Positions 2,318 to 33,560 of a stretch of DNA of 39,642 bases are shown piece by piece. Below the pieces are notes generated by a model. That model saw only the letters and a list, made by a program, of their open reading frames with translations, ran no database searches and was not told where the DNA came from. Position numbers and translations under genes: made by a program. This stretch comes from Bacteroidetes bacterium 4572_128 (GTDB lineage: Bacteria > Bacteroidota > Bacteroidia > Bacteroidales > 4572-128): positions 1-39,642 of the forward strand of contig NBLL01000058.1 in NCBI GenBank assembly GCA_002084355.1, given 5' to 3'. The number at the start of each line of letters is the position of its first letter. Position 1 is the first letter of the stretch.

Positions 2318-2647
2318 TCAATTTTTTTCAACAATTATAAAAATATCTTCGTTCTTTTTTTTCATAAAATATTGCTCTCTGGCAAATTTTTCTAAATTTT
2401 CTTTGCTTGTTTTTAATTCTTCTAATTTTTTTTTATCTTTTTTAATTCGTTCATTATAAAATTTTTCTTGTTTTTTTAAAATACTTATTTCTTCTAAACT
2501 ATTTATCCTTTCTAATAAGTTGTTTTGGTCGAAAAATAATATCCATATCAAAAAAATAATAAACGTAATAATATATTTATTTTTTAATAAGTAAAGATTT
2601 TTTACAATTTCAAGTGTTTTTTTTATTTTGAAAAAAATATTTTTCAT
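2318..2647 (-). CDS. Septum formation initiator, DivIC/FtsB family
   Basis: Small 109-aa bitopic membrane protein of the divisome. A basic N-terminal segment is followed by a single membrane helix (about residues 26-40, ending IWILFFDQNNLL). A lysine/glutamate-rich coiled coil spans about 45-85, and the family tail is FAREQYFMKKKNEDIFII. The FAREQY..K...ED end is characteristic of Bacteroidota DivIC-like proteins. It should bridge FtsL and FtsQ-type proteins at the septum. It follows pgk on the minus strand with a gap of about 54 nt and probably shares its transcript. Length is normal and no disruption is seen. Confidence 0.85.
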   Translation of the reverse strand: MKNIFFKIKKTLEIVKNLYLLKNKYIITFIIFLIWILFFDQNNLLERINSLEEISILKKQEKFYNERIKKDKKKLEELKTSKENLEKFAREQYFMKKKNEDIFIIVEKN

Positions 2648-2701
2648 ATAAAATATTTTTTGAAATAATTTTCTGTAAAAAATTATTTCAAATAATTAAA
2701 A

Positions 2702-3895
2702 TTATTTTCTAATAGCTTTAATTGTAGCTAATTCATTTCCTTTTACATATTCTAAAAGTGCTCCTCCTCCGGAAGAAATATAACTAATTTTGTTTTGCAA
2801 TTTATATTTATTTATCGCAGCAACAGAATCGCCTCCACCAATTAATGAAAAACCACCTCTTTCTTTAACTTTTGCAACAGATTTAGCAATTTGCAAAGTT
2901 CCATTTTGAAAATTATTCATCTCAAAAACTCCCATAGGTCCGTTCCATAAAACAGTTTTTGATTTTTCTATTATTTTAGAAAACCTATTTATGCTTTTCA
3001 ATCCTATATCAAGACTCATGCAATTATCTTTTATTTTATTTATATCACTATAAGTGATATTTGCTGAATTGCTAAATCTATCAGCATTAACACTATCAAT
3101 TGGAAGATAAAATTTTACTTTTTTTTCTATAGCTTTTTGAAGAATTTCTGAAGCTATTTCTATTTTATCACTTTCAAAAATAGAATTTCCTATGCTTCCG
3201 CCTATTGATTTTATGAAAGTAAAAGCCATACCACCACCAACAATAATATTATCTACTCTTTCTAAAAGAGAACTTATAACTTCTATTTTCGAAGAAATTT
3301 TTGCTCCGCCAATAATTGCTGTAAAAGGTCTTTCACCTTTTTCTAAAAGCATTTCTAAATTTTTCAATTCATTTTCAATAACATAAGCAAACATTTTATC
3401 TTTTGGAAAAAACTCACTCACTATAGATGTAGAACAGTGATTTCTATGTGCTGTACCAAAAGCATCATTTACATAAACCTCAGCAAGTTTTGATAATTTT
3501 TTAGCAAAGTTTTTATCTCCTTCTTTTTCTCCCTTATGAAAACGTACATTTTCTAAGAGAATAACTTCTCCAGCTTTTAAACTTTTTACTTTTACTGATG
3601 TATTTTTGCCAATACAACTATTTGCAAATAAAACTTTAATACCCAAAAGTTTAGATAAATGTTCTAAAATATGTTTATTAGAAAATCTTTCTTCGAAAAT
3701 ATTTCTTTTTGGTCTTCCAAGATGTGATAATAAAATAAGTTTTCCTTTTTCTTTTAGAATTTTTTTTATCGTAGGAATAGCAACTCTCATTCTTGAGTCA
3801 TCTGTTATTTCAAATTTATCATTCAAAGGTAAATTAAAATCAACTCTTAGCAAAACCCTTTTGTTTGCGAAATTGTAATCAGAAAATAATTGCAT
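2702..3895 (-). CDS. pgk: Phosphoglycerate kinase
   Basis: Cytosolic glycolytic enzyme transferring phosphate between 1,3-bisphosphoglycerate and ADP. At 397 aa it has the usual length. The N-terminal substrate domain starts with KRVLLRVDFNLPL and has HLGRP and the LLENVRFHKGEKEGD loop; the hinge region contains AFGTAHRNH. The C-terminal nucleotide domain has VGGGMAFTF, LWNGPMGVFE and the glycine-rich IGGGDSVAA. All key motifs are present, with no internal gap, in contrast to many neighbours. It is divergent from clpP across a 108-nt AT-only spacer and upstream of divIC. Confidence 0.97.
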   Translation of the reverse strand: MQLFSDYNFANKRVLLRVDFNLPLNDKFEITDDSRMRVAIPTIKKILKEKGKLILLSHLGRPKRNIFEERFSNKHILEHLSKLLGIKVLFANSCIGKNTSVKVKSLKAGEVILLENVRFHKGEKEGDKNFAKKLSKLAEVYVNDAFGTAHRNHCSTSIVSEFFPKDKMFAYVIENELKNLEMLLEKGERPFTAIIGGAKISSKIEVISSLLERVDNIIVGGGMAFTFIKSIGGSIGNSIFESDKIEIASEILQKAIEKKVKFYLPIDSVNADRFSNSANITYSDINKIKDNCMSLDIGLKSINRFSKIIEKSKTVLWNGPMGVFEMNNFQNGTLQIAKSVAKVKERGGFSLIGGGDSVAAINKYKLQNKISYISSGGGALLEYVKGNELATIKAIRK

Positions 3896-4003
3896 AGTTT
3901 TATAAAAAAAAATAATTACAAAAAAAATAAATTTTTTTAAAAAAAATGTGTTTTTTTGAAAAAAATTTTTTTTTAATTTATATTAAAATTTTTATTAAAA
4001 ATT

Positions 4004-4690
4004 ATGATTCCAAAAAACGAATTTAATAAATATGCGACTAAGCATCTTGGCATAAGTAGTTTAAATTTAAGTAAATTTAATTCTATTTATAACGATTATA
4101 TTTCTCCAACAATAATAGAAGAACGTCAATTAAATATTGCTTCTATGGATGTTTTTTCTCGTTTGATGATGGACAGAATTATTTTTCTTGGAATGCCGAT
4201 AAATGATTATGTTGCAAATATTGTTCAGGCACAATTATTATTTTTAGAATCCAGCGACCCAAATAAAGATATTCAAATTTATTTGAACACTCCCGGAGGT
4301 TCGGTTTATGCAGGTCTTGGAATTTATGACACTATGCAATATATTAGTTCTGATGTTGCTACCATTTGTACTGGTATGGCTGCTTCTATGGGAGCAATTT
4401 TGTTAGCTGCCGGACAAGAAGGAAAACGTTCTGCTTTGAAGCATTCGAGAGTTATGATACATCAACCTATGGGAGGTGTTCAAGGACAAGCGTCTGATAT
4501 AGAAATCACTGCAAAAGAAATTAAAAAATTAAAAAATGAACTTTATAAAATTATTTCTGTTCATTCTAAGCAAGATATTAAAAAAGTAGAATTAGATTCT
4601 GATAGAGATTTCTGGATGACTTCAGAAGAAGCAAAAAAGTACGGAATGATAGATGAAATTCTTGTAAGAAATAATTTAAAAAATAAATAA
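4004..4690 (+). CDS. clpP: ATP-dependent Clp protease proteolytic subunit
   Basis: Serine peptidase (S14) forming the tetradecameric chamber fed by ClpX. The nucleophile Ser is about residue 128 in GMAASMGA, the general-base His about 153 in HSRVMIHQP, and the acidic residue lies in DSDRDFW near 198-202. LNTPGGSVYAG forms part of the oxyanion and substrate region. At 228 aa it carries the longer N-terminus common in Bacteroidota. The stop is 3 nt before clpX, so the two are clearly co-transcribed and probably translationally coupled. Complete and undisturbed. Confidence 0.97.
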   Translation: MIPKNEFNKYATKHLGISSLNLSKFNSIYNDYISPTIIEERQLNIASMDVFSRLMMDRIIFLGMPINDYVANIVQAQLLFLESSDPNKDIQIYLNTPGGSVYAGLGIYDTMQYISSDVATICTGMAASMGAILLAAGQEGKRSALKHSRVMIHQPMGGVQGQASDIEITAKEIKKLKNELYKIISVHSKQDIKKVELDSDRDFWMTSEEAKKYGMIDEILVRNNLKNK

Positions 4691-4693
4691 AAT

Positions 4694-5938
4694 ATGAAAA
4701 AATGTTCTTTTTGTCATCGTTCTGAGCAGGATGTTGAAATTTTAATAGATGGAATAGACGGTCATATTTGTAATAATTGCGTAGAAATTGCTTATGAAAT
4801 TATTCAAAGAGAAGACGAAGTTAAAAGCAAGAGTAAAACAGATAACAAATCTTTTTTAGATAAAAAACTTTTAAAACCTAAGGAAATAAAAGTTTTCCTT
4901 GATGAATATCTTATCGGACAAGATGATGCAAAAAAGATTTTATCTGTGGCGGTTTATAATCATTATAAACGTTTGTCGCAAGATAAAATTAAAGTTAAAA
5001 AAGATGAAGTTGAGATAGAAAAATCTAACATTATTCTTGTTGGAGAAACTGGTACAGGCAAAACTTTATTTGCTCGTACCATTGCAAAAATGTTGAAAGT
5101 TCCATTTGCAATAGTTGATGCAACAGTTTTAACAGAAGCAGGTTATGTCGGTGAAGACGTTGAAAGTTTACTTGTTCGTTTGTTGCAATCTGCCAATTAT
5201 GATATTGAATTGGCAGAGAAAGGTATAGTTTTTATAGATGAAATAGATAAAATAGCAAGAAAAAGTGATAATCCATCTATCACCAGAGATGTTGCTGGCG
5301 AAGGAGTTCAACAGGGTTTATTAAAATTATTAGAAGGTTCAGTTGTTAATGTTCCGCCACAAGGCGGTAGAAAACATCCAGACCAGAAATATATTTCTAT
5401 AAATACTAAACATATTTTATTTATTTGCGGAGGAGCTTTCGACGGTATAGAAAGGAAAATTGCAAATCGTTTGAATACGAAACTTGTTGGTTATAGTGCG
5501 GTAAAAAATTCTGACCAAATTGACACGAAAAATTTATTGCAATATATTGCTCCTCAGGATTTAAAGTCTTTTGGTTTAATTCCAGAAATTGTTGGTCGTT
5601 TACCAATTTTGGGTTTTTTAAATCCTCTTGATAAAGAAATTTTAAAGAAGATTTTATATGAGCCAAAAAATTCTATTATAAAACAGTATGAATATCTTTT
5701 CAAAATGGACAAAATTAATTTGTCTTTTGATGCAAATGTTTATGATTTTATAGTTAATAAGGCTATGGAATTTAAACTTGGTGCGAGGGGTTTACGTTCT
5801 ATTTGTGAAGCAATTATGCTTGATGCGATGTTTGAATTACCTTCTAAAACAAAAAAAGTTACAGATTTTACCGTAACTTTGGAATATGCAAAAGAAAAAG
5901 TTTTAAAAACAAATAAAAGCAGATTAAAAGCTGTATAA
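4694..5938 (+). CDS. clpX: ATP-dependent Clp protease ATP-binding subunit ClpX
   Basis: AAA+ unfoldase partner of ClpP. The N-terminal zinc-binding domain has cysteines at 4, 7, 26 and 29 (CSFC...CNNC). Walker A is GETGTGKT at about 117-124 and Walker B is FIDEIDKI near 180-187. The pore-loop motif GYVGEDV and the sensor-2 segment GARGLR near the C-terminus are present. At 414 aa it is full length. It follows clpP directly and precedes the nucleotidyltransferase gene by 9 nt, suggesting one operon. Confidence 0.97.
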
Positions 5939-5947
5939 AAAAATTTT

Positions 5948-6880
5948 ATGAAAATAATTATTCCTATGGCAGGAATGGGAAAACGTATGCGTCCACATAC
6001 TTTGACCGTTCCCAAACCATTAATTTCAATAGCAGGAAAAAGTATAGTTGAGCGTTTAGTTACAGAGATTTCAAAAATTGTTAAAGAAGAAATAGAAGAA
6101 ATTGCTTATATTATCAGGGAAGATTTTGGCGAAGAAGTTGAGAAAAATTTAAAAGAAATTTCTAATAAATTATCTGCAAAATCTTCAATTTATTATCAAA
6201 AAGAAGCAAAAGGAACTGCTCACGCTGTTTTTTGTGCTGAGAATTCCTTAGATGGAAATGTAATTATTGCTTTTGCTGACACTTTATTTAAGGCAGATTT
6301 TAATTTGAATAAAGAAAATGATGCTACTATTTTTGTGAAAAAAGTGAAAAATCCTAATGATTTTGGAGTTGTAAAAACTAATAAAGAAAATTTAATTACA
6401 GATTTTATTGAAAAACCTAAGGAATTTATTTCTGACCTTGCAATTATCGGAATTTATTTTTTTAAAGATGGTAAAAATTTAAAAAAAGAAATAAAATATC
6501 TGATAGATAATAAAATAATTGTTAATAATGAATACCAATTAACAGATGTTCTTGAAAATATGAAAGAAAAAAATATTTCTTTTAAAGCTGAAGTTGTTAA
6601 TGAATGGTTGGAAATTTCTAAATCTGCAGAAATTATAAATTCTGTGATTTTAGAACCGTCTTTTATAGATTGTAATGTTAAAATAGAAAATTCTGTAATT
6701 GCAAAACATGTTTCCATTGGAAAGTATACAAAAATAAAAAATTCTATAATTGAAAATTCTATAATTCAAGAAAATTCTATAATTGAAAATGCAAATATTA
6801 CAAACTCAATGATAGGAAATTTTGTAGAAATAAGAAATAAAAAAGTTGAAATGAGTGTAGGAGATTTTAATTCTTTTTAA
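5948..6880 (+). CDS. Sugar nucleotidyltransferase, probably missing an internal block
   Basis: NTP_transferase-family protein. The start MKIIIPMAGMGKRMRPHTLTVPKPL contains the nucleotide-binding signature. AFADTLFKADF carries a metal-binding aspartate and FIEKPKEF is typical. The C-terminal third (IENSVIAKHVSIG and repeats of I.NS.I) is a left-handed beta-helix with hexapeptide repeats. The likely role is making an NDP-sugar for envelope glycans. Relatives recalled from Bacteroidota are about 335 aa; here VNEWLE joins directly to ISKSAEI, so about 24 residues (normally LDCGNK.. and following) appear lost in frame near 6613. Start ATG is 9 nt after clpX. It may retain partial activity or reflect an assembly gap. 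Confidence 0.85.
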   Translation: MKIIIPMAGMGKRMRPHTLTVPKPLISIAGKSIVERLVTEISKIVKEEIEEIAYIIREDFGEEVEKNLKEISNKLSAKSSIYYQKEAKGTAHAVFCAENSLDGNVIIAFADTLFKADFNLNKENDATIFVKKVKNPNDFGVVKTNKENLITDFIEKPKEFISDLAIIGIYFFKDGKNLKKEIKYLIDNKIIVNNEYQLTDVLENMKEKNISFKAEVVNEWLEISKSAEIINSVILEPSFIDCNVKIENSVIAKHVSIGKYTKIKNSIIENSIIQENSIIENANITNSMIGNFVEIRNKKVEMSVGDFNSF

Positions 6881-7535
6881 ATTCATAAAAAATTGGCGAT
6901 TTTTGGAAAAAAAATTTTTTTTTAATATTTAAAATTCATAAAAAATTGGCGATTTTTGGAAAAAAATTTTTTTTTAATATTTAAAGTTCATAAAAAATTG
7001 GCGATTTTTGGAAAAAAATTTTTTTTTAATATTTAAAGTTCATAAAAAATTGGCGATTTTTGAAAAAATTTTTTTTTTTAATATTTAAAATTCATAAAAA
7101 ATTGGCGATTTTTTAAAAAAATTTTTTTTTTTTATATTTAAAATTCATAAAAAATTGGCGATTTTTAAAAAAATTTTTTTTTTTAATATTTAAAGTTCAT
7201 AAAAAATTGGCGATTTTTGGAAAAAATTTTTTTTTTAATATTTAAAGTTCATAAAAAATTGGCGATTTTTGAAAAAATTTTTTTTTTTAATATTTAAAGT
7301 TCATAAAAAATTGGCAATTTTTGAAAAAAAAATTTTTTTTTAATATTTAAAGTTCATAAAAAATTGGCGATTTTTGAAAATTTTTTTTTTTTTAATATTT
7401 AAAGTTCATAAAAAATTGGCGATTTTTGAAAAAAATTTTTTTTTTTTAATATTTAAAGTTCATAAAAAATTGGCGATTTTTGAAAAAATTTTTTTTATTT
7501 TGATATTTAAAATTCATAAAATAATTGGTTTTTTT
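6881..7535. repeat. Tandem array 1: about 13 copies of a ~53-bp AT-rich unit, core TTGGCGA
   Basis: The unit starts TTCATAAAAAATTGGCGA, continues TTTTTGAAAAAAA and ends with a long T run and AATATTTAAA. Copies vary mainly in homopolymer lengths; one has TTGGCAA and the last (about 7512) has lost the core. Each unit contains the small palindrome AAAAAT-TGGCG-ATTTTT and an A-run/T-run palindrome. The array starts one base after the nucleotidyltransferase stop and ends before the anmK terminator, in a convergent gap. No ORF here is credible. Confidence 0.9.
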
Positions 7536-7542
7536 TCAAAAA

Positions 7543-7575
7543 AAAATTTTTATGATTTTAAATCATAAAAATTTT
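7543..7575 (-). terminator. Terminator of anmK
   Basis: A 16-bp perfect inverted repeat (TTTTTATGATTT/AAATCATAAAAA inner arms) with a 1-nt centre, 22 nt beyond the anmK stop. A T run follows on the minus strand. Confidence 0.7.
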
Positions 7576-7596
7576 CCCGTTTTTTTATTGAAAATA

Positions 7597-8655
7597 TTAG
7601 TTAGCAAGAAAAATACTTCCTCCAATATTATTTTTTGTTGCTCCTGTAACCGATGAAAGACAATTATTAGTTTTTTCATATCTTAGCACTCCAAGAAAAG
7701 CAAAAATAATTGCTTCTTTAAAATCCACAATTTGTTTTTTAGGTATAAAAATATTATGATTTGTTTTTTCTTTTAATAATTCAAGAAGAAATTTATTATG
7801 TGCTCCTCCTCCAGTTAAAAGAATTTTTTTACTTTTTTTATCTTTTATAGAATCATTAATTTGAATAACTATATGCTCATAAACAGTTCTTAATGAATCT
7901 TCTATTTTTAAATTTTCTTTTTCTAAAATTGATAAAAATGATTTTTCAAAATATTCTCTGGATAAAGATTTTGGATGCTCTTTTTGATAAAAAGAAACAT
8001 CATTTAATTTTTTTAACATAAAATTATTTATTTTGCCATTTTTTGAAATTAAACCATCTTTATCAAAATCTTTACCGATTTTTTTCGAAAGAAAATTTAT
8101 TGCAATATTTACTGGACAAATGTCAAAAGCTATTCTTTTTTTATTTTTTTCAAAAGATAAATTTGCAAAACCACCGAGATTTATACAAATATCGTAATCA
8201 GAGAATAAATATTTATCTCCAATTGGAACAAGTGGCGCACCTTGTCCGCCAAGAGCAACATCTAAATTTCTAAAATCAGAAATTGTTGTTTTCTTAGTTT
8301 TTGCACAAATATTCGCACCGTCACCCAGCTGAAAAGTAATTTTTTTATCTGTTTGATGAAAAACAGTATGACCATGAGAAGAAATAAAATCTATTTTTTC
8401 TGTAATATCTTTTAAAAAAATATTAACATTTTCACCTATAAAATTCCCATAATCTTTATGTAGTTTTATCAACTCAAAAGCAGATAATCTATGTGAATAG
8501 CTTAATTTATTCTTCCAAATTTTATTATAAACAACAGTATGAGATTTTTTTATCTCAAAATTCCAATTTCCATTATTGTTTTTAAAACTACAAAAAACAA
8601 TATCTAAACCATCAATAGATGTTCCAGACATTAAACCAATAACATTATATCGCAT
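7597..8655 (-). CDS. anmK: Anhydro-N-acetylmuramic acid kinase
   Basis: Peptidoglycan-recycling kinase that cleaves and phosphorylates 1,6-anhydro-MurNAc to MurNAc-6-phosphate. The start MRYNVIGLMSGTSIDGLD is the family signature and ATP-binding segment. SSHGHTVFHQ, GDGANICAK, FRNLDVALGGQGAPLVP and LGGFANLSF follow, and ILLTGGGAHN is the C-terminal phosphate loop. 352 aa is normal length. It is divergent from era (114-nt gap) and its 3' end faces array 1. No damage seen. Confidence 0.95.
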   Translation of the reverse strand: MRYNVIGLMSGTSIDGLDIVFCSFKNNNGNWNFEIKKSHTVVYNKIWKNKLSYSHRLSAFELIKLHKDYGNFIGENVNIFLKDITEKIDFISSHGHTVFHQTDKKITFQLGDGANICAKTKKTTISDFRNLDVALGGQGAPLVPIGDKYLFSDYDICINLGGFANLSFEKNKKRIAFDICPVNIAINFLSKKIGKDFDKDGLISKNGKINNFMLKKLNDVSFYQKEHPKSLSREYFEKSFLSILEKENLKIEDSLRTVYEHIVIQINDSIKDKKSKKILLTGGGAHNKFLLELLKEKTNHNIFIPKKQIVDFKEAIIFAFLGVLRYEKTNNCLSSVTGATKNNIGGSIFLAN

Positions 8656-8734
8656 TATAATTCATATAAATTTATTATGAATAAATATTTATATATTAAA
8701 AAAAACAAAATTAAAATTTTTTTATAAAAAAAAC

Positions 8735-8742
8735 TATTTTTG
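8735..8742 (+). promoter_or_regulatory. -7 promoter element for era
   Basis: TATTTTTG matches TAnnTTTG. It overlaps the TTG that the ORF track used as an upstream start (8740), which makes that start impossible if transcription begins a few bases downstream, and supports ATG 8770 as the real era start. Confidence 0.5.
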
Positions 8743-8769
8743 AAAAATTTTTTTTATAAATTTAAAAAA

Positions 8770-9654
8770 ATGTTACATAAATCAGGTTTTGTAAATATAG
8801 TTGGAAATCCAAATGTTGGAAAATCTACTTTGATGAATATTATGGTAGGAGATAAAATTTCCATAATTACCAATAAATCTCAAACAACACGCCATAGAAT
8901 TATGGGAATTGTAAACGAAGAAAATTATCAAATCGTTTATTCTGATACTCCGGGAGTTATTAAACCAAATTATAAGTTGCAAGAAAATATGTTAAATTTC
9001 TCGCTTTCAGCACTTTCTGATGCTGATATAATTTTGTATGTTACAGATATTTACGAAAAAATTGATAAAAATCAAGATTTTTTACAAAAAATACAAAAAT
9101 TAAAAGTTCCAATTTTAATCTTAATTAATAAAATTGATTTATCTAATCAAGAAAAAATTAACGAACAATTTGAAATTTGGGAAAAAATCCTGCCAAATTC
9201 AGAGATTTTTCCAATTTCTGCATTAGAAAAATTTAATTTAGAAAACCTTTTTAATCGTATTTTGGAACTTTTGCCAGAATCGCCTCCTTATTTTGATAAA
9301 GATGTTTTTACAGATAAATCGGAGCGCTTTTTTGTGTCGGAAATTATCAGAGAAAAAATCTTATTAAATTATAAAAAAGAAATTCCATATTCTGTAGAAA
9401 TTGAAATAGAAGAATTTAAAAGGCAAATTAAACCGAAAAAAATCCTTAAAATTAAGGCAGTCATTCATGTGGAACGAGAAACACAAAAAGGAATAATTAT
9501 TGGGAATAAGGGTAAATCGATAAAAAAATTCGGTACACAAGCAAGAATAGATATAGAAAAATTTTTTGGAGAAAAAGTTTTTCTAGAGTTCTTTGTAAAA
9601 TTAAATAAAAATTGGAAAGATAAAGAATTCCAAATAAAAAATTTTGGTTATTAA
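8770..9654 (+). CDS. era: GTPase Era
   Basis: Ribosome-assembly GTPase acting on 16S rRNA 3' end maturation. G1 is GNPNVGKST (about residues 12-20), the switch region has QTTRHRIMG, G3 is DTPGV, G4 is NKID and G5 is SAL. The C-terminal KH domain has the RNA-binding loop IIGNKGKSIKKFG. From ATG 8770 the protein is 294 aa, the usual length; the 10-residue extension in the ORF track begins inside the promoter. The downstream secreted thioredoxin gene starts 13 nt after the stop. Confidence 0.95.
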   Translation: MLHKSGFVNIVGNPNVGKSTLMNIMVGDKISIITNKSQTTRHRIMGIVNEENYQIVYSDTPGVIKPNYKLQENMLNFSLSALSDADIILYVTDIYEKIDKNQDFLQKIQKLKVPILILINKIDLSNQEKINEQFEIWEKILPNSEIFPISALEKFNLENLFNRILELLPESPPYFDKDVFTDKSERFFVSEIIREKILLNYKKEIPYSVEIEIEEFKRQIKPKKILKIKAVIHVERETQKGIIIGNKGKSIKKFGTQARIDIEKFFGEKVFLEFFVKLNKNWKDKEFQIKNFGY

Positions 9655-9667
9655 AAATCATTTAAAA

Positions 9668-10708
9668 ATGAAAAAAATTTTTATTATTATTTTGACCTTT
9701 TTTTTAATGTTTTTTTCGAAAGAAATCCTTTCGCAAGAGAAAAAAGTTATTATAAAAGGTAAAATTGAAAATTGCGAAGATTATAAAAATATATCTTTAA
9801 AAGAAATTATTACCGGTGATGAAATAATTTCTGCTCCTTTGAATAAAAGAGGAAAATTTAAAATAAAGACAGAAATAGAAAATGGAAACTTTTATAGGCT
9901 TTGTTTAGATGAAGATAATTACATTTTGTTAATTTTGCTTGGCGGAGAAAAAGTGAAAATCAAAGCAGATTTTATGAATTTATTTATTCCAGAAATTTCC
10001 GGTTCTGAACCAACAGAATTAATGTATAAAACTTTTCGTAAGATAGAAAAATTTAATGCTAAATTAGATAGTGTTGCTTATACAATAGAGAATGAAAAAA
10101 AAGAATTTATTAGACAAACAATTTTAAAAAATCCATCTTCTCTTAGCAATTTATTCTTTTTAGATAATTTAGATATAAATTCTAATTTAGAAATTTTCAC
10201 AAAATTAGATAGCTCTTTGTATGAAAAATATCCTCAAAATTTACTCGTACAACGACTTCACGAGGATTTGAAAAATACAGAATCTCTTGCTATTGGAAGT
10301 CAAGCTCCGGAGATAAAACTTCCAAATTTAGAAAATAAAGAAATCGCTTTATCGTCTTTACAAGGAAAATATGTTTTAATTGATTTTTGGGCTGCATGGT
10401 GTGCGCCTTGTAGAAAGAAAAACAAAGATTTAGTTTATATACATAATAAGTTTAAAAATAGTAATTTTCAAATTTATTCTGTTTCCTTAGACCAGAGCAA
10501 AGAAACTTGGGGAAAAGCAATTAAAGATGATAATTTAGAAGATTTTATTCATGTTAGTGATTTAAAATATTGGCAATCTATAGTCACAGAAACTTATAAA
10601 ATAGAAGCAATACCGTTTAATGTTTTTATAGATAAAAATGGGAAAATTTTAGCAAAAAATATAGAGATTGAAGAATTAGAAAAAATGTTAAACGAAATTC
10701 TTGATTAA
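9668..10708 (+). CDS. Secreted/periplasmic DUF4369-thioredoxin (TlpA-like) protein
   Basis: An envelope thiol-disulfide oxidoreductase typical of Bacteroidota. I chose ATG 9668 because MKKIFIIILTFFLMFFSKEILSQ is a clear signal peptide; the ORF-track start at 9644 overlaps era. The N-terminal DUF4369-like beta domain covers about residues 24-115 and a helical linker follows. The C-terminal TlpA-like thioredoxin fold (from about 205) has the active site WCAPC with cysteines near 245 and 248 and the cis-proline segment IEAIPFNVFID. About 346 aa. It probably reduces or resolves disulfides in exported proteins; the substrate is unknown. It shares a transcript with era only by position. Confidence 0.85.
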   Translation: MKKIFIIILTFFLMFFSKEILSQEKKVIIKGKIENCEDYKNISLKEIITGDEIISAPLNKRGKFKIKTEIENGNFYRLCLDEDNYILLILLGGEKVKIKADFMNLFIPEISGSEPTELMYKTFRKIEKFNAKLDSVAYTIENEKKEFIRQTILKNPSSLSNLFFLDNLDINSNLEIFTKLDSSLYEKYPQNLLVQRLHEDLKNTESLAIGSQAPEIKLPNLENKEIALSSLQGKYVLIDFWAAWCAPCRKKNKDLVYIHNKFKNSNFQIYSVSLDQSKETWGKAIKDDNLEDFIHVSDLKYWQSIVTETYKIEAIPFNVFIDKNGKILAKNIEIEELEKMLNEILD

Positions 10709-10777
10709 AATAAAAAAAAAAAAATAGAATATTATTAAAAAAATTTCATTTTTTTTAATTTATCATCTTGTGCTTAA

Positions 10778-10793
10778 GCGGTGTTTTCACCGC
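10778..10793. terminator. GC-rich hairpin GCGGTG-TTTT-CACCGC
   Basis: A 6-bp all-but-one GC stem with a TTTT loop in otherwise almost pure A/T sequence; AAGCGGTG and CACCGCAC could extend it. It lies 70 nt after the thioredoxin gene. The sequence that follows is CAGGCGCAAAATTTT, so a classical T-run terminator is only partial. A terminator or a structured RNA element are both possible. Confidence 0.5.
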
Positions 10794-10809
10794 ACAGGCG
10801 CAAAATTTT

Positions 10810-10839
10810 AATTTTTTTTAATTGCAATTAAAAAAAATT
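10810..10839. terminator. 15-bp-arm palindrome, probable bidirectional terminator
   Basis: A perfect palindrome centred on GC (TTTTTTTTAATT-GC-AATTAAAAAAAA) between the convergent thioredoxin and chaN-like genes. A second 11-bp inverted repeat (GGCAAAATTTT/AAAATTTTGCC) lies at 10855-10865 and 10912-10922, close to the chaN stop. Confidence 0.55.
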
Positions 10840-10937
10840 TTTTTCAAAAAAAACGGCAAAATTTTATGATTTTATTCTAATTTAATTAATTTTTTATAAT
10901 TAAAAAAAATGAAAATTTTGCCAATTTGAAAAAAAAT

Positions 10938-11818
10938 TTAATATGTTGTTGTCATATTATTAGGAACAACAATAATAAAATCTGCCAAATTCTCATTTTC
11001 TTTATTCCATTCATTAATATTTTCTTCCATTACCGTTGCTATGGTAATTATTTTTGATTTTGGTTTTTCTTCTTTTATAAAATAACATTAAAATGAAGAA
11101 AAGTTTTTTTCTTTTTCCAATATTCCAAAATAAAATATGACATAGAAGCATCTTTTGATGCCTGAGCTTCAGCGATGTGTATTTTTTGAGACTTTTTTTT
11201 TATCATCATTTTTTTGGGCATTTTACTTTTTTTCTTCTTCATTCCCATATTCATACTTTCCATTTTTTTGTAGCTTTCTAATTCCATGTTTGCTTTTATT
11301 GGCAAATCAGGTAAAAATTTTTTCGCTTCTTTGCTTAAATTTTTCAAACTTTTTAAGCCATTTTTTGCTACATAAGAAGCATAACGTCTCGGAATATTTG
11401 TCGCAACAAACTTTAATTTTTTTTCTTTTGCAAATTCGAAAAAAGGCTTGTAATCTGTAGAATAGTTTGGCCAAAGTTTTGCTTCGGTTTCAAAACTTCT
11501 TTGCTTTATTAAACCAGCAAAATATTCGTCTATTTTTAATTGGTCGTCTGTTTCAAACATTTCTGCACCAAGAATTAATTTGTCTTTTTTCTTTTCGTAC
11601 AGTTTTTTTGTCAGCTCAAGCTCCAACCAATGACAAATTGGATTATTATGCAATTCTCCAAAAAAAACAAAATCGCTTTCTGCAGACGATTTTATTACAT
11701 CTTCGAAATCAACTTTTTTACCTGTTTTTGTGTAAATTTGATAAGCCTTATAATCGCTTGATGAAAAAATCAAAATTACAAAAAACAATATTGAAATTAT
11801 TTTTAACTTATAAACCAT
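10938..11818 (-). pseudogene. ChaN-like haem-binding/iron-regulated lipoprotein family, frameshifted near the 3' end
   Basis: Exported ChaN/DUF399-type protein. An N-terminal signal segment is followed by conserved FVFFGELHNNPICHWLELEL, LGAEMFETDDQ and NIPRRYAS, where the GELH.N motif supplies presumptive ligand residues. The ORF-track entry ends FLHFNVIL. The true family C-terminus continues in another frame immediately downstream: YFIKEEKPKSKIITIATV then ADFIIVVPNNMTTTY, stop at 10938-10940. Relatives read HFNGSYHSDNYEGIVWY at the join, so about 13 residues plus a frame are missing near 11085. An unusual Met/Lys-rich insert (MNMGMKKKKSKMPKKMMIKKK) lies at about residues 190-210, where relatives have a His/Met/Gly-rich loop; it might bind metal. 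Haem binding is known for Campylobacter ChaN, not shown here. Confidence 0.8.
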
Positions 11819-11857
11819 ATTATCTTTTTAAAAATTTATTAAAAGTAATAATTTTTT

Positions 11858-12985
11858 TTATTTTTTAATTTTAATTTTTTTTATTACCGTAAAAGCAGCT
11901 TGATTATTTTTTCTAAAAAATTCTTTTTCTAAATTTACAGGATTTTTTCTTCCGGTAACTCTATCATCGTCGTGTATGACAAAAATCGTATTTTTGTCAA
12001 TAATTGCAATTCCTTCGCTTTTATGAGCAAAATGTATCGCTTTATTATTTTCATCTTTTACAATTTTAAAATCCTTTTTTTCATTGAAATCAGACATAGA
12101 AATTTCCAATAAATATCCTCCCATAGCAATATCAATTTCTGCTAATTCATAAGAAACAAGCAAATAAATTTTATCATTATATTTATCATATTCTAATGAA
12201 GAAACACCAATTTCTTCATTTATTTCTGGAAAATTATTTTTTGTAAATTTATATAATAATTCAAAATTATTTTTTAATTTAATTGTTTCATTTTCAATAA
12301 AATAATCTACAGCAATTAAAGTTATTGTATATTCAAAATCTGTGTAATTTTTTCCAATTTCTCTTATTCCAAAAAGCAATTTATTTTCCGGCAAAACAGC
12401 TAAACCTTCTATTTTAAAATAATTTATTCCATTTGGAAAATTTTTGCTTTCCAAGAGTTTTAAAAAATGCTCTCTTAAATTCACAGAACTAATAATTTTA
12501 TTATTTTCAATAGGTGAAATAATTTTCACATTATTTTCAAAATTATTTTCCCAATAAATTAAATTATTATAATTATCCCAAGAATTATTTTTTTTTCTTA
12601 CTCTGTCAAATCCAGAAATAGCAATAATAAATTTTTCATCTATTGTGCAGCTTAAATCTTCTATTTTTTTTGTATTTAAAATTGTTTTATTTTCTATAAA
12701 AAAAATACTATCCAATTGAAAATCATTATTATATGGGATTTTGAAAATTGGTGATGCATTTGGAATAGATTTATCATTTCCAATAAATAAATTTCCATTC
12801 ACAAAAGTAACTCCAGAAGCTTCAGCATTGAAAATAATTTCCTTTTTGTTTAAATTCTCCGGAATAACATTAATTACACCTCTTTTTAAAATTTTTGCAA
12901 AATAAATAGTATCTTTTTTTTGAGATTTTGCAAAACAAAAAAATGTAAAAAAAAACGTCAAAATGAGAAAAAAATTTTTTTTCAT
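11858..12985 (-). CDS. Secreted esterase-like/phytase-like beta-propeller family protein
   Basis: 375 aa with a strong N-terminal signal peptide (KKNFFLILTFFFTFFCFAKSQ). The body looks like a beta-propeller: repeated short strands with GVTFVNGNLFIGND, KIEDLSCT, FKIEGLAVLPENKLLFGIR and HKSEGIAIIDKNTIFVIHDDDR. The EGxA and HDDDR elements resemble the 'esterase-like activity of phytase' or SdiA-regulated families, in which acidic residues bind calcium. I cannot assign a substrate. It is upstream of the chaN-like gene on the same strand with a 39-nt gap, so the two may be co-transcribed. No break seen. Confidence 0.6.
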   Translation of the reverse strand: MKKNFFLILTFFFTFFCFAKSQKKDTIYFAKILKRGVINVIPENLNKKEIIFNAEASGVTFVNGNLFIGNDKSIPNASPIFKIPYNNDFQLDSIFFIENKTILNTKKIEDLSCTIDEKFIIAISGFDRVRKKNNSWDNYNNLIYWENNFENNVKIISPIENNKIISSVNLREHFLKLLESKNFPNGINYFKIEGLAVLPENKLLFGIREIGKNYTDFEYTITLIAVDYFIENETIKLKNNFELLYKFTKNNFPEINEEIGVSSLEYDKYNDKIYLLVSYELAEIDIAMGGYLLEISMSDFNEKKDFKIVKDENNKAIHFAHKSEGIAIIDKNTIFVIHDDDRVTGRKNPVNLEKEFFRKNNQAAFTVIKKIKIKK

Positions 12986-13040
12986 AAATATTAAAAATTT
13001 AAAATATTTATAAAAGTAAATTTTTTATTAAAAAAAAATA

Positions 13041-13048
13041 TATTTTTG
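13041..13048 (+). promoter_or_regulatory. -7 promoter element for gltX
   Basis: TATTTTTG 17 nt before the gltX ATG, matching TAnnTTTG. Confidence 0.55.
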
Positions 13049-13064
13049 TAAAAAATTATTTAAA

Positions 13065-14488
13065 ATGGAAAAAAAAGTAAGATTACGTTTTGCTCCAAGT
13101 CCAACTGGAGCTTTACATATTGGTGGTGTACGCACCGCTTTATTTAATTATTTATTTGCAAAAAAACATAATGGAGATTTTATTTTGAGAATAGAAGACA
13201 CTGACCAAAATCGTTATGTTGAAGGAGCGGAAAAATATATTATAGAATCTTTAAAATGGTGTAATATAAATTTCGATGAAGGAGTTGGAATAGGTGGCGA
13301 TTTTGCTCCTTACCGACAGTCAGAACGAAAAAAAAATTATAAAAAATATGCCGATAAATTATTAAAAGAAAATTTTGCTTACTACGCTTTCGACACATCT
13401 GAAGAATTGGAAAAAATGCGTGCGGATTTGAAAAAGGCAAAAGTAAAAACACCACAATATAATGGAATTACTAGAGTAAATATGCGAAATTCTTTGACTT
13501 TGTCTGCGGATGAAGTAAAAAAATTACTTGATAATAATGTTCCTTATGTTATTAGAATAAAAAGACTTATCATCTTGCAAATGTCGTAGATGATCATTTA
13601 ATGAAAATTTCGCACGTTATTAGAGGCGAGGAATGGTTACCTTCTTTGCCAACGCATAAACTTTTATATCAATATCTTGGATGGGAAAAAGATATGCCAG
13701 AATTTGCTCATCTTCCTCTTCTTTTAAAACCAAATGGAAAGGGAAAATTAAGTAAAAGAGATGGAGATAAAATGGGTTTTCCAGTTTTTCCTTTGCGCTG
13801 GGAAGATCCAAAAACAAAAGAAATTTCATCGGGTTACAGAGAAGATGGTTATTTTTCTGATGCTTTTGTAAATATGCTTGCTTTTCTTGGTTGGAATCCT
13901 GGAACGACAAAAGAACTTTTTTCTATGGAAGAGCTAATTAAAGAATTTTCTCTTGAGAGAGTTGGAAAATCTGGTTCTAAATTTGACCATAAAAAAGCTG
14001 AGTGGTTCAATCAAAATTATTTAAAAAGAAAGTCTAATGAAGAATTAACAAATTTATTTCAAGTTATTTTGAAAGAAAAAAATCATAATTTTTCTGATGA
14101 ATATGTTTCTAAGGTTTGTAATTCTATGAAAGATAGAGCAGTTTTCATAAAAGATTTCTGGGAACAAGCAAGCTACTTTTTTAAGTCTCCAACAGAATAT
14201 GATAAAAAAGTTATAAAAAAGAAATGGAAAAAAGAAACTCCGGAAATTTTAAATGAATTGAAAATTAAAATTCAGAAAATAGAAAATTTCAATAAAAATG
14301 AAATAGAAAAAGTTTTTAAAATTTATTTAGAAGAAAAAAGTTTAAAAATGGGACAAGTTTTAAATGTTTTTCGTTTAGCTTTAACTGGACTTTCTTTTGG
14401 ACCTTCTATTTTTGAAATTTGCGAGTTAATTAAAAAAGAAGAAGTTATCAATCGTATTGAAAAAAGTATAGAAATTATAGAAAAATAA
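13065..14488 (+). pseudogene. gltX: Glutamyl-tRNA synthetase, split by an internal deletion and frameshift
   Basis: Class I synthetase charging tRNA-Glu, normally indispensable. The first ORF (174 aa) has the HIGH-type motif [21 protein letters not shown] and IEDTDQNRY, and ends PYVIRIK followed by out-of-frame residues. The second frame resumes at [27 protein letters not shown] and includes the KMSKS-type KLSKRDGD, then the helical anticodon-binding domain. Relatives have about 35 residues between RIK and TYH (a segment with DLIRG and the strand before LFKSDG). The nucleotide join is near 13563. The two pieces add to about 469 aa plus the gap, matching the usual length of about 505. No other damage is seen, which is strange for a true pseudogene; an assembly gap is likely. 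Confidence 0.9.
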
Positions 14489-14509
14489 TTATTAAAAAAA
14501 ATTTTTTTA

Positions 14510-15450
14510 AAAAACGTCATTTTTTTTTAATAATTTAAAAATTAAAATTTTGACGTTTTTTGAAAAAAAATTTTTTTTTAATTATAAAATTCATTAAAAA
14601 ATTGACGTTTTTTTGAAAAAAATTTTTTTTTTTTTAATTATAAAATTCATTAAAAAATTGACGTTTTTTTGAAAAAAAATTTTTTTTTAATTATAAAAAA
14701 ACATTAAAAAATTGACGTTTTTTTGAAAAAAAAAATTTTTTTTAATTATAAAATTCATTAAAAAATTGACGTTTTTTTGAAAAAAAAAAAATTTTTTAAT
14801 TATAAAAAACATTAAAAAATTGACGTTTTTTTGAAAAAAAAAATTTTTTTTTAATTATAAAAAACATTAAAAAATTAACGTTTTTTTGAAAAAAAATTTT
14901 TTTTTTAATTATAAAATTCATTAAAAAATTGACGTTTTTTAATTATAAAATTCATTAAAAAATTAACGTTTTTTTGAAAAAAAAAAATTTTTTTTTAATT
15001 ATAAAATTCATTAAAAAATTGACGTTTTTTTGAAAAAAAATTTTTTTTTAATTATAAAATTCATTAAAAAATTGACGTTTTTTTGAAAAAAAATTTTTTT
15101 TTAATTATAAAAAACATTAAAAAATTAACGTTTTTTTGAAAAAAAATTTTTTTTTTAATTATAAAATTCATTAAAAAATTAAAAAATTTTTTTTTTAATT
15201 ATAAAAAACATTAAAAAATTACGTTTTTTTGAAAAAAAAATTTTTTTTTAATTATAAAATTCATTAAAAAATTAACGTTTTTTTGAAAAAAATTTTTTTT
15301 TTAATTATAAAATTCATTAAAAAATTAACGTTTTTTTGAAAAAAAAATTTTTTTTTAAATTATAAAATCATTAAAAAATTGACGTTTTTTTGAAAAAAAT
15401 TTTTTTTTTAAATTATAAAATCATTAAAAAATTGACGTTTTTTTGAAAAA
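14510..15450. repeat. Tandem array 2: about 18 copies of a ~53-bp AT-rich unit, core TTGACG/TTAACG
   Basis: The unit is TTCATTAAAAAATTGACG, then TTTTTTTGAAAAAAAA and a T run ending AATTATAAAA. Variants include ACATT instead of TTCATT and TTAACG instead of TTGACG; one unit lost the core (about 15175) and one is cut short at 14940. Same architecture and orientation as array 1 but a different core. It fills the whole convergent gap between gltX and the glycosyltransferase stop. Confidence 0.9.
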
Positions 15451-15454
15451 TTTT

Positions 15455-23932: not shown

Positions 23933-24484
23933 ATGAAATTATCTGTTATTCCTTATGGCTCATTTATTTTGAGAAAAAACAATTCAGAAATTAATGAAAA
24001 TTATAAAGATCTTGATAAACTTATAAAAGATATGTTTGAAACTATGTATTTTGCAAATGGAGTTGGTCTTGCTGGTCCCCAAGTTAATAAAAATATTCGT
24101 TTATTTGTTATAGATGCTTCGGTTATGGAGGAAGATGACCCAAAAGCAAAAGATTTTAAACAAGTTTTCATAAATCCAAAAATTATTAAAGAAGAAGGAA
24201 AATTATGGAAATATAAAGAAGGATGTCTGAGTGTTCCAGAGATAAGAGAACACGTTAAGAGAAAATCCATTATTCATATAGAATATTTTGATGAAAATTT
24301 TTATTTTCACAAAAAAACTTATGACGGAGTAATTGCAAGAATTATTCAACATGAATGTGATCATTTAGATGGTATTGTTTTTGTAGACAAAATTTCACCT
24401 ATAAAAAAGCGATTATTAAAAAGTAAATTAAAAGCCATTTCAAAAGGTAAAATTTCAACAGATTATAAAATGAAATATAATTAA
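23933..24484 (+). CDS. def: Peptide deformylase
   Basis: Removes the formyl group from nascent N-terminal fMet. Three motifs are complete: GVGLAGPQV (43-51), EGCLSVP (96-102, metal-ligand Cys98) and QHECDHLDG (139-147, two His ligands and the catalytic Glu). 183 aa, complete. The second member of the ruvX-def operon, followed immediately by repeat array 3. Confidence 0.97.
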   Translation: MKLSVIPYGSFILRKNNSEINENYKDLDKLIKDMFETMYFANGVGLAGPQVNKNIRLFVIDASVMEEDDPKAKDFKQVFINPKIIKEEGKLWKYKEGCLSVPEIREHVKRKSIIHIEYFDENFYFHKKTYDGVIARIIQHECDHLDGIVFVDKISPIKKRLLKSKLKAISKGKISTDYKMKYN

Positions 24485-24690
24485 AAAAAATTTTTTCAAA
24501 AATCGTCCAAAATTTTAATGTTTTTTATTTTGAAAAATAAAAAAAATTTTTCAAAAATCGTCCAAAATTTTAATGTTTTTTATTTTGAAAATAAAAAAAT
24601 TTTTTCAAAAAATGTCCAAAATTTTAATGTTTTTTATTTTGAAAATAAAAAAAAATTTTTTCAAAAATCGTCCAAAATTTTAACCTTTTT
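24485..24690. repeat. Tandem array 3: four ~55-bp units with core TCGTCC
   Basis: Units read TTTTTTCAAAAATCGTCC, AAAATTTTAATG, TTTTTTATTTTGAAAATAAA; the third has ATGTCC. In reverse complement the core is GGACGATTTTTGAAAAAA, i.e. the same build as arrays 1 and 2 in the opposite orientation. Degenerate relatives with cores TTGTCC, ACGACG, TCACC and TTCGGC continue to about 24990. The 24518 ORF-track entry is a translation of the repeat. Confidence 0.85.
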
Positions 24691-24699
24691 ATTGAAAAC

Positions 24700-24731
24700 A
24701 ACATTGGAGTTTTTTTTTAAACTCCAATGTT
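24700..24731. terminator. Hairpin AACATTGGAGTTT / AAACTCCAATGTT
   Basis: A perfect 13-bp stem with a T6 loop. The same ACATTGGAG stem recurs at 39350-39383, so this is a repeated hairpin type in this genome. It could end the ruvX-def transcript. Confidence 0.65.
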
Positions 24732-25094
24732 TGATGTAATGTTATGTTAAATTTTTTTCGAAAATTGTCCAAAATTTTAATAATTTTTAATAATTTTTAA
24801 TTTCAAAATAAATTTTTTTTCAAAAAACGACGAAATTTTAATGATTTTAAATATTAAAAAAAAATTTTTTCCAAAATCACCAATTTTTTTATAATTATTA
24901 TTAAAAAAAATTTTTCTTCAAAATCACCAATTTTTTTATGAATTTAAATATTTAAAAAAAAATTTCCAAAATTCGGCAAAATTTTTATATTTTTTAAATT
25001 TCAAAAAATTGTATAAAAAAATAATAATAAAAAGCAACTTTTTTTTAATTTTTACGTCATTAAATTATAAAACAAATTTTAATTTAAAAAAATT

Positions 25095-29954: not shown

Positions 29955-29984
29955 TTTAAAAAATTCAAAATAAAATTATAATTT

Positions 29985-30180
29985 TATTTCAAAAAAAGCA
30001 ATTATTTTAATGTTTTTAAAAAAAAATTTTTTTGAAAAAATCCAATTTTTTTAATGTTTTTTAAAATTTAAAAAAAAATTTTTTTGAAAAAATCCAATTT
30101 TTTTAATGTTTTTTAAAATTTAAAAAAAAAATTTTCAAAAAAATCCAATTTTTTTAATGTTTTTTAAAATTTAAAAAAAT
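29985..30180. repeat. Array 4: three to four ~56-bp units with core ATCCAATTTT
   Basis: Units read TTTTTTTGAAAAAATCCAAT, TTTTTTAATGTTTTTTAAAA, TTTAAAAAAAA. In reverse complement the core is TTGGATTTTTTC. The rest of the gap to 30522 is AT-rich with a scatter of half-units (for example near 30465); I see no gene in it. Confidence 0.8.
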
Positions 30181-30522
30181 ATTGGATATTGAAAAAAAAC
30201 GAAAAAAATATTACGTTTATACTACTACCTTTTGTTTACACAATTACATAAATATATTTATTAAAAATAATTTTTTTTTCACAAATTAAAAAAATTTAAA
30301 TACAAAAAATATTTTTATTTAATTTTGAAATATTTTTTTATTTCATTTCGAAAGCATCATTATTATTGCTTTATATTTATTTTTTATTTTTATTCATTTT
30401 TAAAAAAATGATATGGAATTTGTTAAAAAACATTAAAAAAAATCTGCATTTTATTGAAAAATTTTTTTTTTGAAAAAATCAATTATTTTAATAGTTTTGT
30501 ATAATACAAATATTTTATTTTT

Positions 30523-33104: not shown

Positions 33105-33324
33105 TTTCAACAGATACAAACCTAAATTTTTTCAAAAAAATGAATTCTTTGAGTTTGTATATTGGAAAAAATTTATTAAAAATAAATTTTTTCCAAAAAA
33201 CGCTAAAATTTTACGAATTTATAAAAAAAAAAAATTCAAAAACGTCAATTTTTTACGAATTTTATAATTTATAAAAAAAATTTTCAAAAAAACAGGTAAT
33301 TTTTTGGGTTTGTATCTGTTGAAA
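33105..33324. repeat. Pair of 18-bp perfect inverted repeats bounding a ~184-bp AT-rich segment
   Basis: TTTCAACAGATACAAACC at 33105-33122 is the exact reverse complement of GGTTTGTATCTGTTGAAA at 33307-33324. A related GAGTTTGTATATTGG lies between them (about 33151). No ORF inside. Could be a MITE-like remnant or a long-range stem; A-runs on both sides prevent target-site-duplication calling. Confidence 0.6.
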
Positions 33325-33334
33325 AAATTTTTCA

Positions 33335-33560
33335 AAAAAACCAATGATTTTATTTGAAATTAAAAAAAAAATTTTTTTCAAAAATCGTCTAAATATTTTA
33401 ATATTTTTATTTTGAAATTAAAAAAAAATTTTTTCAAAAATCACTCAAAATTTTAATGTTTTTTATTTTGAAATTAAAAAAAAATTTTTTCAAAAATCAC
33501 TCAAAATAAATTAAAAAAAAATTTTTTCAAAAATCACTCAAAATTTTAATATTTTTTATT
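33335..33560. repeat. Array 5: ~55-bp units with core TCACTC
   Basis: Units of TTTTTTCAAAAATCACTC, AAAATTTTAATG and TTTTTTATTTTGAAATTAAA, about three copies plus a first unit with core TCGTCT. One unit lacks the AAAATTTT half. Same family as array 3, at the 3' end of the downstream nuclease-like gene. Confidence 0.8.

Follow-up and report, generated by a model that had tools for sequence, protein, structure and literature searches.

What keeps a short core nearly identical through a long AT-rich tandem array placed exactly at the end of a gene is the question raised by positions 6876-7551 of the window, by which we mean the whole stretch of 39,642 nucleotides of Bacteroidetes bacterium 4572_128 analysed here. 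The initial annotation had offered two answers, selection of the core TTGGCGA as a protein or RNA site and maintenance of uniformity by recombination. The array (array 1, + strand, consensus TTTAAAGTTCATAAAAAATTGGCGATTTTTGAAAAAAATTTTTTTTTTAATA) is a non-chance repeat, for which TRF reported a period of 52, 12.9 copies, 91% matches and a score of 1070, in agreement with our hand-cut list and with the approximately 13 units first counted; cutting at TTTAAA[AG]TTCAT delimits units of 52-54 bp, and a separate repeat search gave a spacing of 52-53. Unit 1 begins at 6876, within the last codons and the stop of a nucleotidyltransferase/hexapeptide protein gene (5948-6880, + strand, ORF with Pfam PF00483), and the array ends about 45 bp from the 3' end of the opposing gene for anhydro-N-acetylmuramic acid kinase (AnmK; 7597-8655, - strand, ORF with Pfam PF03702), confirming its location at a gene 3' end in a convergent gap. 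The core, described as invariant, is nearly so: among the 12 units that have it, TTGGCGA is exact in 11 and reads TTGGCAA in the one starting at 7293, while the degenerate last unit (7506-7557, + strand) carries TAATTGG, a typical array-edge decay also seen in the outer units of other arrays. The claim that the core is kept while its flanks drift holds for the lengths of the A7 and T9 tracts, but not for the left flank TTTAAARTTCATAAAAAA, which is as constant as the core. The nested palindromes ascribed to each unit proved to be A/T tracts, since the RNA folds of the units tested did not surpass those of dinucleotide shuffles (z +0.3 to +1.5). The sole terminator-like hairpin seen in this gap is an A/T-rich dyad at the AnmK-side edge (7543-7575), which forms on both strands (fold z -3.5 and -4.1), is followed by T-runs and lies about 660 nt from the end of the nucleotidyltransferase gene, at the opposite edge of the array. 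An Rfam scan of the window returned a tRNA alone above the gathering score and no match for the array units.

Array 1 has many relatives in its own genome. A unit profile built from units of that genome (G000) found, at E<=0.01, 1,108 units in 681 kb vs a single one in dinucleotide-shuffled sequence. In 306.6 kb sampled regardless of arrays there were 503 units, making up 7.3% of the bases; by extrapolation, the 2.6 Mb assembly would hold about 4,300 units, or roughly 7% of its bases. The sister species (G001), sampled to about 1.07 Mb, is also unit-rich, with some 3,100 units by extrapolation. These are the only two unit-rich genomes, 11 of 245 others of the order having one or two marginal matches each; as sampled, the family is essentially confined to one little-known AT-rich genus of the Bacteroidales. 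Its members form 233 clusters, of which 78 are single units, 49 are pairs and the largest has 32 units. G000 and G001 are both draft MAGs, whose assembly may have collapsed long arrays. Of 20 sampled G000 contigs, 14 begin inside a unit or no more than 300 bp from one, which explains the fragmentation of these MAGs and makes array lengths and copy numbers lower bounds. Within arrays the units run head-to-tail on the same strand, gaps holding both orientations being few, and every array of at least three units has its own consensus. Unit spacings cluster in a single broad peak at 52-54, spread over 44-60, and we discarded helical phasing because there is no second peak one turn away. A strong polarity of orientation along contigs was likewise dropped (86 same vs 58 different, a weak bias), as was loss of mismatch repair, MutS being present in both genomes; a search for phage carriage with one exact pattern in viral contigs gave no match.

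The window itself illustrates this diversity. Besides array 1, TRF, core lists, alignment and profile or synteny comparison located on the - strand an array of about 2.4 units of 46 bp with core GGATG in a convergent gap (1925-2036), two adjoining arrays with cores GGACGA and GGTGA in a codirectional gap (24482-25010), an array of about four units with core TTGGA in a convergent gap (29980-30183) and arrays with core AGTGA and its neighbours in a codirectional gap (33207-33544). Array 2 (14502-15450, + strand) comprises about 17 units of 53-54 bp with core TTGACG/TTAACG in convergent position after the gltX frame, and the convergent gap at 10709-11074 has one unit with core GCCG. The latter gap also holds a strong G/C-containing hairpin, GCGGTGTTTTCACCGC (-20.9 kcal/mol), which is probably either a conventional terminator or a small RNA.

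Comparison among arrays inverts the expectation that the core is the conserved element. The search for A5TTGGCGAT5 that had been proposed found the motif 11 times in array 1, nowhere in the other 642 kb sampled from the genome and once in G001. The core differs from array to array, reading GGCG, GACG, GGACG, GGACGA(A), GCCG, GGCA, ATCG, CACG and more, and is mostly uniform within each. Over the 80 arrays of at least five units, the columns of the core rank with the most variable ones, inside arrays as well as between them (between-array mismatch of 0.21-0.64 in columns 25-29), whereas there is next to no variation at the centres of the A4, T5, A6 and T8 tracts (mismatch about 0), a constancy for which profile ascertainment accounts in part. 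Since within-array spacings rarely exceed 80 bp, few degenerate units can have been missed inside arrays. The core lists further revealed homogeneous blocks, decayed edges and half-and-half hybrids such as L023, where six TTTTGGACGA(A) cores are followed mostly by TTTTGCCG. Covariation of the left and right arms around the core was absent (Fisher p=0.36).

The same turnover is visible between species. G001 orthologues have a median amino-acid identity of 95.8%, and at 27 orthologous gene ends, i.e. orthologous genes with units where the G001 contig ends inside units, array orientation is conserved in 24 and the dominant core in only 5. Persistence of position and chassis while the core is replaced is a sign of local homogenisation. 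At the 3' end of the nucleotidyltransferase gene there are 14 profile matches vs one in G001, a contrast blurred by the changed gene order and by contig breaks at arrays. A few arrays show an identical succession of core types in the two species; in one slow-turnover example, L017:6142-6706 and its G001 counterpart L136 share the alternation TGCCG, TTGGCG, TGCCG, TTGGCG, TGCCG. The initial annotation had named two observations that would speak against it, a core evolving as fast as its flanks in relatives and a lack of association with gene ends; the first is what we observe, and the second is not.

The association of units with gene 3' ends is in fact genuine genome-wide. In both genomes together, units occur in 103 of 168 convergent, 186 of 584 codirectional and 56 of 193 divergent gaps (convergent vs divergent, p=1e-9), and in the 306 kb sample they account for 48% of the convergent-gap sequence. 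In codirectional gaps they sit closer to the preceding stop codon (median 45 nt) than to the following start codon (median 95 nt; p=1e-12), their orientation relative to the upstream gene being random (20 arrays same, 17 opposite).

We therefore consider it probable that array 1 belongs to an intergenic satellite family specific to this genus, homogenised array by array and located at transcription-unit ends, and we favour this as the main claim over a terminator function. The units are indeed head-to-tail copies with array-specific variants, as satellites are, and the arrays, homogeneous inside and mutually different, fit the second of the two original options, uniformity through recombination. 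The ancestral unit would have been about 52 bp long, with an A/T-tract chassis, approximately CATTAAAA..TT-core-T6-G-A7-T8, enclosing a short core that contains G/C; it is found today as isolated copies or as arrays reaching about 30 units, chiefly behind gene 3' ends. Each array would expand and stay uniform locally by replication slippage or unequal recombination among its own units, so that the core of the founder unit, TTGGCGA for array 1, would spread across its array; slippage or unequal exchange is the putative motor, and the location would reflect what transcription-unit ends tolerate, perhaps alongside a weak action of the tracts as stop signals. Family-wide occurrence, private cores varying between constant tracts, position and orientation kept between species under core turnover, the 3'-end bias and a partial mutual exclusion with hairpin terminators are all direct observations. 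Neutral turnover alone sits less easily with the tract constancy over 80 arrays, which suggests some constraint, and the orientation kept at orthologous ends is also compatible with a selected role; the A/T tracts, constant around a drifting core, may be the working part. The arrangement recalls eukaryotic satellite DNA such as alpha-satellite in its local homogenisation, array-private variants, decayed edges and higher-order alternation, but here it is bacterial and dispersed in hundreds of short intergenic arrays.

Among the other explanations, the one to which we give most weight is that arrays are hot spots of recombination, reshuffling the genome and breaking gene order where they lie, which we entertain as a tentative possibility. 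The window genes at 2318-6880, 7597-10708 and 11075-14488 form three blocks found on three different G001 contigs, and all four unit-bearing convergent gaps that border them (1918-2317, 6881-7596, 10709-11074 and 14489-15454) are broken relative to G001, while the unit-free gaps scored within the blocks are kept. The break at array 1 is not an effect of G001 contig ends, because both G001 neighbours read through gaps of 136 and 176 bp, and a misjoin in G000 is unlikely since the units of array 1 are homogeneous for a core unique within the sample. Among gaps of at least 100 bp, gene order is kept in 5 of 42 with units vs 19 of 34 without (p=5e-5), a difference that stands at p=0.014 once adjusted for gap length and type. 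However, a further 17 unit gaps end at G001 contig ends, and scoring them as kept brings the test to p=0.06-0.2; breaks are in any case tolerated at transcription-unit ends, and unit orientation across broken gaps is not conserved. Indeed, conserved orientation across broken gene order, considered as a result in its own right, was abandoned at 15 of 25 once contig-end cases and false ORFs inside arrays had been taken out. The coincidence of units and gene-order breaks is thus suggestive, with a count biased by contig breaks. In the last of these blocks, the glutamyl-tRNA synthetase gene (13065-14488) is split in two frames; near 13563 it lacks about 36 codons of the intact G001 gene and shifts frame, owing either to misassembly or to a recent lesion.

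A somewhat less probable alternative, plausible though on balance unlikely, is that the units serve as a hairpin-free bidirectional transcription-end signal in which repeated U-tracts would replace the hairpin and the core would be filler. Polymerase arriving from either convergent gene would meet a U-tract of 5-10 nt per strand every 52 bp or so. With a hairpin defined as a fold of -11 kcal/mol or lower within 150 nt of the stop, convergent 3' ends have one in 64 of 204 cases (31%) with units vs 50 of 78 (64%) without (p=8e-7), and the share is 18% at ends with at least four units vs 44% with one to three. Tract conservation around the variable core and the proximity of units to the upstream stop in codirectional gaps point in the same direction, as does the G001 orthologue of the nucleotidyltransferase gene, which ends in an ordinary hairpin terminator and a single unit. 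Nevertheless, arrays may just displace hairpins beyond 150 nt, as the dyad at 7543-7575 exemplifies, and the difference, though it persists, shrinks when whole gaps are considered; units are also present in 29% of divergent gaps, and unit RNA folds are weaker than or equal to those of shuffles. Folding of the units found no intrinsic terminator, i.e. no stable hairpin plus U-tract per unit. In model bacteria, U-tracts that lack a hairpin terminate transcription only weakly. The units recall archaeal-type oligo-U terminators, which likewise place repeated U-tracts at gene ends with no hairpin, although here the polymerase is bacterial and termination is hypothetical. The hairpin deficit fits either displacement by growing arrays or substitution by repeated U-tracts. 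It is tempting to go further and speculate that a self-amplifying satellite has replaced many hairpin terminators, its tracts stopping transcription both ways and its core drifting as an array-private barcode, a combination that we regard as distinctly improbable. If the tracts do stop transcription, Bacteroidota would have a way of ending transcripts that dispenses with hairpins.

The first of the original options, TTGGCGA as a selected protein- or RNA-binding site on a multi-site platform, is highly implausible, for its near-exact repetition in a regular 52-54 bp phase is confined to array 1, where the left flank is just as constant, while cores elsewhere differ, rank among the most variable columns and are replaced between species. 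Equally remote is the mobilisation of the units by a RAYT (Y1) transposase as REP/BIME-like elements: REPs do occur in high copy as singles, pairs and arrays with a preference for convergent gaps (PMC1525189, PMC2817692), traits that the extragenic units share, but the latter form no stable hairpin as RNA, run head-to-tail rather than in alternating orientation, and the Y1_Tnp profile had no match in G000 (73% complete) and in G001 hit one frame with five stops. This Y1 transposase-like frame with its five stop codons (L088, G001:C203:4437-4802) is the only such match of the genus.

The satellite family that we favour can also be set against other bacterial repeats. With the REP/BIME elements of Enterobacteria and Pseudomonas it has in common hundreds of short intergenic repeats at transcription-unit ends and a link to recombination, yet its units are not GC-rich palindromes, are arranged head-to-tail, have no conserved core and are accompanied by no intact RAYT. 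The closest bacterial precedents located, TAACTGA heptamers and Portiera repeats, both differ in unit and setting. The TAACTGA heptamers of Beggiatoaceae, Cyanobacteria and some Bacteroidetes are likewise abundant intergenic sets of direct repeats, with long arrays in some Bacteroidetes, but they are a fixed 7-mer mostly just upstream of starts (PMC4679880), whereas the present units measure about 52 bp, lie at 3' ends and vary in their core. The unstable Portiera genomes are AT-rich too, with repeats in enlarged intergenic regions and rearranged gene order, features tied there to dnaQ loss and genome reduction (PMC7821994); the genomes studied here are free-standing, of 2.6-3.4 Mb, with MutS and one dominant family. 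Our literature search, of partial coverage, found no paper on intergenic tandem arrays in Bacteroidales/Bacteroidetes. For a bacterium, a dispersed array-forming satellite that takes up about 7% of the genome and nearly half of the convergent-gap sequence is unusual, and its hundreds of replicate arrays offer a natural system to measure slippage, homogenisation and gene-order change in bacteria.

Another Bacteroidales family (G011) has tandem arrays of its own, with a similar A/T-tract layout and a different unit; a parallel origin at gene ends is possible, and we do not claim homology. Their periods are about 31 (A7-TC-T7-G-A7-CTTCTT) and 17 (CTTCTTTTTGAAAAAAA), and the arrays lie at L003 (G011:C14), 1460-1800, and L228 (G011:C171), 1199-1755.
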